A stretch of DNA of 52,652 nucleotides from NCBI GenBank assembly GCA_022763185.1, contig JALEGL010000010.1, positions 1-52,652 on the forward strand, in the 5' to 3' direction. The translations under genes were made by a program, and so were the position numbers. How positions within the stretch are numbered: position 1 is the stretch's first letter; every line of letters starts with the position of its first letter. The DNA comes from a bacterium. Its GTDB lineage: Bacteria > Bdellovibrionota_G > JALEGL01. Shown one piece after another: positions 38,292 through 41,463 of this stretch. The notes beneath the pieces were generated by a model. That model saw nothing but the letters and a program-made list of their open reading frames with translations, was not told the origin of the DNA and did no database searches.

Positions 38292-38469
38292 TGCATATGT
38301 AGAAAAATACCTGATTACTTTATTATAACCATTAATGAAAAAAAGAAAAGCACCCTAAATTTTTTTTAAGTTTTCATTAAAGCTAAAATACAAAAAAACT
38401 CGCTAAATTGATAACTTATGGATTAATTTCATTTTTCATTGCTCAACAATGTGTTACATTGGCCCACGT

Positions 38470-39822
38470 ATGCAAGTTTCAAAACTCTTATTACCTGAGA
38501 TTGTTGCGGCAATTGAAAACGACGATCTTCAAAGCCTAAAAACGGTTTTTCAAGATTTGCACCCCAGTGATATTGCCGAAGTGGTCAACCAACTCTCCAG
38601 TGAACATGTTGCTGCAATTATTCGCCTTTTACGTTTTCCAAGTGGTATTCATGTTTTTGAGCAACTGGACTTACAAACTCAGGCCAATGTTCTTAACCAC
38701 TTGGGGAGAACCGAAACGGTTAATATTTTAGAAGAACTCTCTTCGGATGACCGGGTAGACTTGGTTCAAAAACTCCCTGAACAAACTGTAAAATCCTTGT
38801 TACCTTTCATCGCAAAAACCGAACGCGATGAAATAAAAAAGCTTTTGCAATATCAAGAAGATTCTGCTGGTGCATTGATGACCACAGAATATGTCAATAT
38901 CCCGGTTGACATGAATGTTAAAACGGCTCTTGCTCACATCAAAAAAGTCGCTTTAGAAAAAGAAACCATTTATTATGTTTATGTTGTTGATGCACAGCGC
39001 AAGCTTATTGGTACTGTTTCCTTGCGTGACTTGGTTTTGGCTGATGATGAATGTCAAATTAGCACAATTTTATCCAAAGATCCTATTGCCTTATCTGTGG
39101 ATGCTGACCTTGAAGAGGTGGTTAAAACATTTGAAAAGTATGACTTCTTGGCTGTGCCGGTGGTTGATCATGAGCTAAAACTGATTGGTATCATCACACA
39201 TGATGACGCTTTTGATACCGTCATTGAAGAGCATACAGAAGATGCACACAGAATGGGGGCCATGCAACCCCTTGAAGACCCCTATTTTCAATCAAAAATA
39301 TCAGATATTGTTAAAAAACGTGGATTTTGGCTGATGTTGCTGTTTTTAGGGCAGTTTTTTACTTTTTCTGCTTTGCAATACTTTGAATCCACCATGCAAA
39401 AAGCGGTTATGCTGATGTTTTTTGTGCCTCTCATCATATCTTCTGGTGGAAACTCTGGCTCACAATCGGTAACACTGATTACCCGTGGTTTGGCTGTAGG
39501 AGACGTAAACAGTAAAGATTTTTTCAAAGTTCTACGCAGAGAAACCTTAGTGGGTTTGCTGCTGGGCTTATTTTTGTGCATGATTGGCATTGTATGGGCT
39601 CATTTTATATGGGGAGCAGAGTTCTATTTATGCATTGCCGTGGGTATTTCCTTGATCAGTGTGGTGACCTTTGGTGCTTTGGTTGGATCACTGCTACCCA
39701 TTATTTTTAAACACTTAGGCCAAGATCCGGCTATCATGTCTTCTCCGTTTGTTGCTTCTATTGTTGATGTGATTGGGATTGTTATTTATTTTTCAGTGGC
39801 CAAAACTTTATTGAATTTGTAA
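38470..39822 (+). CDS. mgtE: Magnesium transporter MgtE
   Basis: This is a 450-residue protein from the ATG at 38470; an in-frame ATG at 38449 would add seven residues. The cytoplasmic N domain (LHPSDIAEVVNQLSSEHVAA) and two CBS domains (about 125-250; ITHDDAFDTVIEEHTEDAHR ends the second) gate the channel. Then come five membrane helices (about 280-450) with the pore motif IISSGGNSGSQSVTLITRGL. It imports Mg2+ and closes at high internal Mg2+. I saw no M-box-like structure in the 178 bases upstream. Confidence 0.93.
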   Translation: MQVSKLLLPEIVAAIENDDLQSLKTVFQDLHPSDIAEVVNQLSSEHVAAIIRLLRFPSGIHVFEQLDLQTQANVLNHLGRTETVNILEELSSDDRVDLVQKLPEQTVKSLLPFIAKTERDEIKKLLQYQEDSAGALMTTEYVNIPVDMNVKTALAHIKKVALEKETIYYVYVVDAQRKLIGTVSLRDLVLADDECQISTILSKDPIALSVDADLEEVVKTFEKYDFLAVPVVDHELKLIGIITHDDAFDTVIEEHTEDAHRMGAMQPLEDPYFQSKISDIVKKRGFWLMLLFLGQFFTFSALQYFESTMQKAVMLMFFVPLIISSGGNSGSQSVTLITRGLAVGDVNSKDFFKVLRRETLVGLLLGLFLCMIGIVWAHFIWGAEFYLCIAVGISLISVVTFGALVGSLLPIIFKHLGQDPAIMSSPFVASIVDVIGIVIYFSVAKTLLNL

Positions 39823-39852: not shown

Positions 39853-41430
39853 ATGAATGAGAAAAATCAGCATCCGCTTCCACTCACAGAACAAGCTTTG
39901 GCCAATTCTTTGGATATCGATGCGCGCAGTACCAGCCAAATAATTGATATTATTCAAAATAATGATCAGGATCTACCTCATCTCTTAAAACAAGTGCAAT
40001 CACAATTGACTTTGTTGGTCAATACAGCTGTTTCTCAAATAGAGCAAGGTGGGCGGATTATCTATGTTGGTGCCGGTACCAGTGGTCGTTTGGGTTATTT
40101 AGATGCTGTTGAGTGTCTTCCTACCTACAACCAGGGAGAAGAAACCATTATAGCGCTTATTGCTGGGGGTAAACAGGCTTTGCACACCGCCGTTGAGGGG
40201 GCAGAAGATGATACAGAACTTGCGGTATCTGACTTAAAAAATATCCAACTTAAAAATAAAGATATTGTCATTGGTCTATCTGCCAGTGGCACCACGCCTT
40301 ATGTTTTATCTGCTTTGGATTTTGCCAAACAGCAAGACTGCTCAACTTGGATAGTCAGCAATAACCCTTTACAACAATCAGACTTTGCGCATCATTATGT
40401 TTACCTTGCTACCGGTCCAGAAGTGGTGACCGGCTCAACGCGTATGAAAGCCGGAACGGCCTTAAAAATGTTTCTCAACTGCTTTTCCAGTGCATGCATG
40501 ATTAAACTGGGACACACTTTTGGTAACTTGATGGTGGATATGAAAGCCACCAACACCAAGTTATCCAAAAGGACTTTAAGAATTACAGACAGTTTATTGC
40601 TTAAAGCACCGCAAGAACCGTTTACTCAAGGACTTAAACATTATATTTTGCAAGAAAAAACCCAAACATCCTATGCGGACAGTGAAAAATATTTAAGCAG
40701 ACACAAAGGTCACCTTAAACAAGCCTTAAGCCAAGACTTAAAATTAGAATTAAACAACTACTCTGCGCTTATTCTTGATATGGATGGCAGCATGCTGCGC
40801 TATCATTTGCCTGTTGGTTTTTCTACCTGGGCAGCTCTAGGATGGGCATACACTATCTATGACCAAATGGAGCAGTGGATAGAGCAATACAAACAAGAAA
40901 AAATAGCTTATGCTGATATTTGGAGTCTTTGCGCGCAAGCCTTAAAAAACAAGCCCATTGATCTGGCTCAGCAAAATTTATTTTGTAGTGCTGGAACTGC
41001 CCCTTACAATAGAGGCTTACAAATAGCACTGCCTTTATTTAAACAACACCTAAAAGTAGGGATTCTCAGCAGTGGTTTAAGCATGGTAGCTGAATCCATT
41101 CAAAGACAATTTGGTTTGGATTTTTCCATGTCCAATACCTTCAATCACAATGGTCATGTTTTTGATGGGACCGTTACTTTAGATGTACCTTATATTGATA
41201 AATACGACTGTTATCGTAAACTTATTCAAGAGCACAATCTAAAGTCAAAAAACATTATTTACGTTGGCGATTCATCCAATGATTTTAGCATTCTTGATGA
41301 GGTGGGCTTCCCTATTTTTTACATTACGCCCCACAACCATCATTTAAAAAATATGGCCAAAGAGCACAAGTGGCATCTGGTCAGTGATTACTATGATATC
41401 TTAAGATTATTTGCGACAGGAAAAAATTAA
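39853..41430 (+). CDS. N-acetylmuramic acid 6-phosphate etherase fused to a HAD-type phosphatase
   Basis: This is a 525-residue protein. Residues 1-300 are a MurQ-type SIS-domain etherase: LTEQALANSLDIDARSTSQI, GGRIIYVGAGTSGRLGYLDA, VECLPTY, TAVEGAEDD, GLSASGTTPYVLSAL, ATGPEVVTGSTRMKAGTALK and GNLMVDMKATN. MurQ converts MurNAc-6-P to GlcNAc-6-P and D-lactate in cell-wall recycling. Residues 301-525 are a HAD hydrolase: D309-M-D311-G-S, ILSSGLSMVAES, and YVGDSSNDFSILDE. Standard MurQ ends at about 300, so the fusion point is clean. The phosphatase may act on the etherase product or on a related sugar phosphate (inference). It is 30 bases behind mgtE. Confidence 0.85.
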   Translation: MNEKNQHPLPLTEQALANSLDIDARSTSQIIDIIQNNDQDLPHLLKQVQSQLTLLVNTAVSQIEQGGRIIYVGAGTSGRLGYLDAVECLPTYNQGEETIIALIAGGKQALHTAVEGAEDDTELAVSDLKNIQLKNKDIVIGLSASGTTPYVLSALDFAKQQDCSTWIVSNNPLQQSDFAHHYVYLATGPEVVTGSTRMKAGTALKMFLNCFSSACMIKLGHTFGNLMVDMKATNTKLSKRTLRITDSLLLKAPQEPFTQGLKHYILQEKTQTSYADSEKYLSRHKGHLKQALSQDLKLELNNYSALILDMDGSMLRYHLPVGFSTWAALGWAYTIYDQMEQWIEQYKQEKIAYADIWSLCAQALKNKPIDLAQQNLFCSAGTAPYNRGLQIALPLFKQHLKVGILSSGLSMVAESIQRQFGLDFSMSNTFNHNGHVFDGTVTLDVPYIDKYDCYRKLIQEHNLKSKNIIYVGDSSNDFSILDEVGFPIFYITPHNHHLKNMAKEHKWHLVSDYYDILRLFATGKN

Positions 41431-41463
41431 AAGACTCTTTGTTTTTTAAAAAGAGTCTTTTAT
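41427..41463. terminator. Bidirectional hairpin terminator
   Basis: AAAAGACTCTTT and AAAGAGTCTTTT form a perfect stem around GTTTTTTAA, with A-run and T-run on the two sides. It separates the MurQ-HAD gene and the convergent isocitrate dehydrogenase gene and suits both strands. Confidence 0.88.

Follow-up and report, generated by a model that had tools for sequence, protein, structure and literature searches.

The window, meaning the whole stretch of 52,652 nucleotides that was analysed, carries a gene in which a MurNAc-6-phosphate etherase (MurQ) is joined to a HAD phosphatase domain. The features of the locus are as follows.

38449 to 39822, forward strand: mgtE, a Mg2+ transporter gene lying 30 bp upstream of the fusion gene (Pfam MgtE, MgtE_N and CBS).
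39853 to 41430, forward strand: the MurQ-HAD fusion gene, a single open frame of 525 aa with an ATG start and a TAA stop at 41428-41430.
39880 to 40734, forward strand: MurQ domain, residues 10-294 (NF003915, TIGR00274 and PDB relatives).
40111 to 40113, forward strand: E87, equivalent of E. coli MurQ Glu83 (alignment; invariant).
40204 to 40206, forward strand: E118, equivalent of E. coli MurQ Glu114 (alignment; invariant).
40759 to 41427, forward strand: HAD-IB-like phosphatase domain, residues 303-525 (start at about 303), with its cap between motifs I and II (PF00702 above cut-off; profile match to phosphoserine phosphatases such as 1f5s; alignment with the fusions of G001 and G002).
40777 to 40785, forward strand: HAD motif I, D309-M310-D311 of D309-M-D311-G-S (invariant in the three fusions; both Asp in all aligned relatives).
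40930 to 40932, forward strand: C360, at the position of phosphoserine phosphatase Arg56 and Cys in all three fusions (alignment).
41068 to 41070, forward strand: S406, the Ser of HAD motif II, in SSG where phosphoserine phosphatase has SGG (alignment).
41200 to 41202, forward strand: K450, the Lys of HAD motif III (alignment).
41269 to 41283, forward strand: HAD motif IV, D473-S-S-N-D477, following a Gly (alignment).
41430 to 41460, no strand: a perfect 11-bp inverted repeat with flanking A/T runs (read from the sequence).

The two domains are separated by no internal stop in the 525-aa frame of the window, and the full match is found once only in the genome to which the window belongs (G000, 2.25 Mb, 97% complete). 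A search of 96 genomes revealed an intact fusion of 532 aa in G002, with 37% identity to the window protein, and a fusion in G001 that is split over two contig ends, where the piece on contig C192 links the C-terminal end of MurQ to the HAD domain and the N-terminal part of MurQ lies on another contig end. These three genomes represent three different families of one order, and the HAD parts of their fusions share 39-48% pairwise identity, a recurrence that is far beyond chance. An assembly chimera or local assembly error is excluded by the presence of the fusion in the two other families. The fourth genome of the order, G003, has neither the MurQ nor the HAD part detected, which is weak evidence of absence from an assembly that is 92% complete and in 340 contigs. 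The survey across genomes that the sequence-only reading had proposed thus places the fusion in G001 and G002 and nowhere else in about 770 genomes: the profile of the HAD half found no other MurQ fusion in 385 widely sampled genomes or in 388 genomes around the nearest stand-alone relatives, two sets that overlap slightly. The 80 MurQ loci listed from named genomes, most of them in enterics, Clostridia and Burkholderiales, include no HAD fusion: none of the matches extends beyond about residue 306. A different MurQ fusion occurs in G091 (L018:520-2343), where a sugar-kinase-like domain (BadF/NagK-like as judged by eye) lies N-terminal to MurQ in one frame and a NagZ-like gene follows immediately 3'. 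No report of a MurQ-phosphatase fusion was found in the open-licence literature. MurQ, HAD-IB phosphatases, MupP and AmgK-MurU are each already known; the combination of domains is new, and the novelty lies in the MurQ fusion and in its occurrence together with AmgK-MurU-like genes but without NagA or MupP.

The MurQ half is complete, as had been read from the sequence alone. Residues 10-294 score 323 bits against NF003915 (cut-off 168), 277 bits against NF009222 (cut-off 255) and 283.6 bits against the TIGR00274 equivalog, slightly below its cut-off of 302, and the PDB relatives 4lzj, 1nri and 4s12 are matched with E of about 1e-60. AlphaFold models this half with pLDDT mostly 75-95. Aligned with 12 MurQ proteins of other phyla, this half keeps all 57 invariant columns, including the equivalents of E. 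coli Glu83 and Glu114, which we take to be the catalytic glutamates, and a degenerate, regulator-like MurQ is thereby excluded. The window MurQ (39853-40746) nevertheless sits on a very long tree branch of 4.7 changes per column, with its placement unsure, and has a 6-residue gap in the C-terminal helical part that leaves every catalytic residue in place. A tree constrained to group the three fusion MurQs is not rejected and has the higher likelihood, and the fusions thus appear in line with one origin.

The HAD half follows MurQ directly, and the D309-M-D311-G-S and GDSSND motifs noticed at first reading prove to belong to a full set, since four of four catalytic motifs of the superfamily are present. 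The domain scores 35.6 bits against the HAD-IB model TIGR01488, below the cut-off of 45, and structure prediction without homologues gives a model of low confidence, with pLDDT of about 50 for the half alone and 30-56 in the full-length protein. Judged by their conserved residues, both halves look catalytically competent. The fused HAD domains have cap inserts that are absent from the aligned stand-alone relatives. The nearest of these relatives adjoin FtsZ-like or rlmN-like genes, and neither AnmK, MurQ nor AmgK is detected in the three genomes with the closest ones, indicating that wall recycling is not the specific task of this HAD family. Of the stand-alone HAD-IB families, the one nearest to the fused domain (L205:4888-5532, relatives in L251-L262) occurs in the majority of the genomes searched in families f105, f262 and f263, mostly genomes of 1-3 Mb, and it probably serves there as a housekeeping phosphatase.

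HAD enzymes require Mg2+, and the mgtE gene lies beside or near the fusion in all three fusion genomes, overlapping its start in G002 and nearby in G001; the Mg2+ need of the HAD domain is a possible link, and the proximity is maybe a coincidence. Downstream of the fusion gene is a convergent isocitrate dehydrogenase gene (icd), and the inverted repeat between the two is a probable two-way terminator, although it is not listed by a consensus scan. In G001 the gene for a GlcD-type FAD-dependent 2-hydroxyacid dehydrogenase ends on the start codon of the fusion, and G000 has a 53% identical homologue elsewhere in its genome. Some GlcD-type enzymes are D-lactate dehydrogenases, and MurQ releases D-lactate as its second product; the G001 gene fits a role in D-lactate removal. 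The D-lactate branch, suggested at first reading, is an implausible target of the HAD domain, as D-lactate carries no phosphate; the GlcD-type gene that overlaps the fusion start in G001 is a separate one. A phosphoglycolate-like substrate, also named earlier as one to test, is unlikely, given the separate Gph-like phosphatase encoded in G000.

Gene content was read from searches and short stretches in five members of the phylum: G004 and the four genomes of the order (G000-G003). AnmK and AmpG are found in all four genomes of the order and NagZ in all five of the phylum. NagA is above cut-off in none of the five, whether searched with an HMM or with an E. coli query, while 7 of 14 genomes in a control panel are above it. 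NagB is seen in G000 and, weakly, in G004 but in no other of the five, and a NagK-type ROK protein only in G001 and G003. With NagA absent and NagB and the ROK protein so distributed, the MurQ product is without its usual consumer in G001 and G002. In G000, where the sequence-only reading had proposed a check for nagA, nagK and anmK, AnmK is present and neither NagA nor a NagK of the E. coli type is detected, pointing to a non-standard pathway. At about 240.7-242.3 kb of contig C14 of the same genome (L137:4702-6326), a gene for a PIG-L-family deacetylase overlaps a gene for a NagB-like glucosamine-6-phosphate deaminase by 4 bp; the pair occurs in G000 alone and is a possible stand-in for NagA-NagB in that genome.

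All five phylum genomes have a gene for an APH-type kinase adjoining one for a sugar-1-phosphate nucleotidyltransferase. The pair is AmgK-MurU-like, scoring 115 and 90 bits where the NCBIfam equivalog cut-offs are 550 and 250. The AmgK and MurU of C. crescentus have only 30% and 37% identity with those of Pseudomonas, and mutants back the pathway in C. crescentus (PMC13046382), and a low score by itself is therefore compatible with such a function. According to Borisova et al. (PMC5371407), proteobacteria, above all Beta- and Gammaproteobacteria, have either MurQ or AmgK-MurU, whereas MurQ and AmgK-MurU-like genes coexist in the fusion genomes. The MupP model NF009696 finds no gene above cut-off in the five genomes and does not appear among the NCBIfam matches listed for the fusion; as it is also below cut-off in a control Caulobacter genome, a distant MupP in the phylum could escape it. 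G000, G002 and G003 have Gph-like genes that match phosphoglycolate phosphatase models best (163-181 bits, against 55-89 for MupP). None of the five genomes has a SerB above cut-off; in G000, G001 and G002 the HAD half of the fusion is the match most like SerB. A pair of class V aminotransferase-like and SerA-like genes lies beside purA in G000, G002 and G003 (L245:5765-8492, L247:2451-5161 and L248:2736-4792).

From the catalytic residues of both halves, the conservation of the fusion in three families and the gene content, we infer a bifunctional enzyme of two consecutive steps, a tentative reading on which the case is nearly balanced but which is still the best explanation of the data. AnmK would make MurNAc-6-phosphate from imported anhydro-MurNAc, the MurQ half would split it into GlcNAc-6-phosphate and D-lactate, and the HAD half, through a phospho-enzyme at Asp309 and Mg2+, would strip the phosphate to yield GlcNAc. 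In the E. coli route the GlcNAc-6-phosphate from MurQ must be deacetylated by NagA; in cells that lack NagA, the fused phosphatase may prevent its build-up at the source. A toxic effect of the GlcNAc-6-phosphate that accumulates when NagA is missing is suspected, and in C. crescentus the two nagA copies could not be deleted together (PMC13046382). The resulting GlcNAc would join the pool released by NagZ, and AmgK, as a C1 kinase for both MurNAc and GlcNAc, could together with GlmU rebuild UDP-GlcNAc with the acetyl group retained. AmgK phosphorylates GlcNAc at C1 and has been used to make GlcNAc-1-phosphate (PMC5371407), and the NCBIfam name of AmgK is consistent with this. The earlier idea that the pair could yield a dephosphorylated sugar, by a shortcut outside the standard pathways, is partly supported: AnmK without NagA fits a non-standard pathway, although the dephosphorylation as such is known from MupP (PMC5371407).

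The two-step reading is preferred, modestly, because fused enzymes presumably catalyse consecutive steps in most cases and because G003 has AnmK and AmgK-MurU-like genes without MurQ and without the HAD domain. The gene content of G003, an incomplete assembly, is weak evidence that the HAD domain goes with MurQ rather than with AmgK-MurU. Against the two-step reading count the PIG-L/NagB-like pair of G000, which could handle GlcNAc-6-phosphate, the HAD family's lack of specificity for wall recycling, the AmgK and MurU calls below their cut-offs and the long MurQ branch. A wider proposal, possible but doubtful, is a third route of MurNAc recycling in which AnmK, the fused MurQ/GlcNAc-6-phosphate phosphatase, AmgK and GlmU would lead to UDP-GlcNAc with the N-acetyl group kept and without NagA. 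In mycobacteria an as yet unidentified route that retains the acetyl group has been inferred (PMC13041923), and the third route, if true, would be a parallel to it.

The main rival, itself rather unlikely, makes the protein a branch-point enzyme that sets the split between direct recycling and catabolism. The HAD half would dephosphorylate MurNAc-6-phosphate in place of MupP, as its non-orthologous substitute, and so supply AmgK and MurU with MurNAc; the MurQ half would divert this same MurNAc-6-phosphate to GlcNAc-6-phosphate and D-lactate. The AmgK-MurU-like pairs of all five genomes need free MurNAc where AnmK yields MurNAc-6-phosphate, the phylum has no gene above the MupP cut-off, and the HAD half is carried on a protein that binds MurNAc-6-phosphate. 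However, the two halves would then compete for one substrate, GlcNAc-6-phosphate would persist without NagA, and G003, with AnmK and AmgK-MurU-like genes and without the fusion or MupP, would need another MurNAc-6-phosphate phosphatase unless its assembly has a gap there. That the HAD half acts as a phosphatase of general metabolite repair, or as a regulatory domain, specific for neither the substrate nor the product of MurQ, is unlikely; phosphatases closely related to it are widespread as stand-alone proteins, and those of their genomes that were checked have no wall-recycling genes, but the fusion is kept in three families at about 40% identity and with cap inserts of its own. Lastly, the phosphoserine phosphatase that the searches miss could be the HAD half itself, its link to MurQ being accidental or regulatory. 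This would agree with the SerB searches, the SerA-like and aminotransferase pair next to purA and the nearest solved structures, which are phosphoserine phosphatases, but is disfavoured and improbable: of the M. jannaschii residues that we take to bind phosphoserine, Arg56 is replaced by Cys and Glu20 by His, Gly or Asp (H318 in the window), SGGF becomes SSG(L/I)S, the TIGR00338 score is 46.7 bits against a cut-off of 144, and G003 has the SerA-aminotransferase pair and no fusion.

The two-step reading, if correct, means that the fusion may let this group recycle wall sugars without NagA, which the standard MurQ route needs. MupP was discovered with the expectation that genomes with MurQ would lack it (PMC5371407). 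In the fusion genomes, MurQ and a HAD domain of another type coexist with AmgK-MurU-like genes and no NagA, in contrast to the view of MurQ and AmgK-MurU as alternatives in Beta- and Gammaproteobacteria. At stake is either a third recycling route or a second, independent origin of a MurNAc-6-phosphate phosphatase, and either outcome bears on the effect of wall recycling on tolerance to fosfomycin and beta-lactams.

Compared with known systems, the protein resembles the MurQ of E. coli and of H. influenzae (HI0754, 1NRI) over the whole domain, with about 40% identity and with the catalytic Glu pair and the invariant columns, but it adds a C-terminal phosphatase, occurs without NagA and falls just below the TIGR00274 cut-off. 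The glucokinase regulatory protein GKRP, a SIS-domain relative of MurQ, differs in being a double-SIS regulator with no HAD domain. The HAD half has profile similarity and four motifs in common with the HAD-IB phosphoserine phosphatase SerB (1F5S) and with the PSP-like family TIGR01491, but Glu20 and Arg56 are not kept, SSGLS replaces SGGF, and the fused domain has an extra loop after motif I and a 4-residue insert in the cap. Relative to the Pseudomonas-type route, AmpG, NagZ, AnmK and an adjacent pair of AmgK-MurU-like genes are present in the order, and no phosphatase of the MupP family is above cut-off; Pseudomonas is without MurQ (PMC5371407). With MupP, a Gph-like HAD enzyme, the window protein shares a HAD phosphatase alongside AnmK and AmgK-MurU-like genes and possibly the same reaction, but its HAD domain has no MupP match among those listed, is HAD-IB-like and is fused to MurQ.
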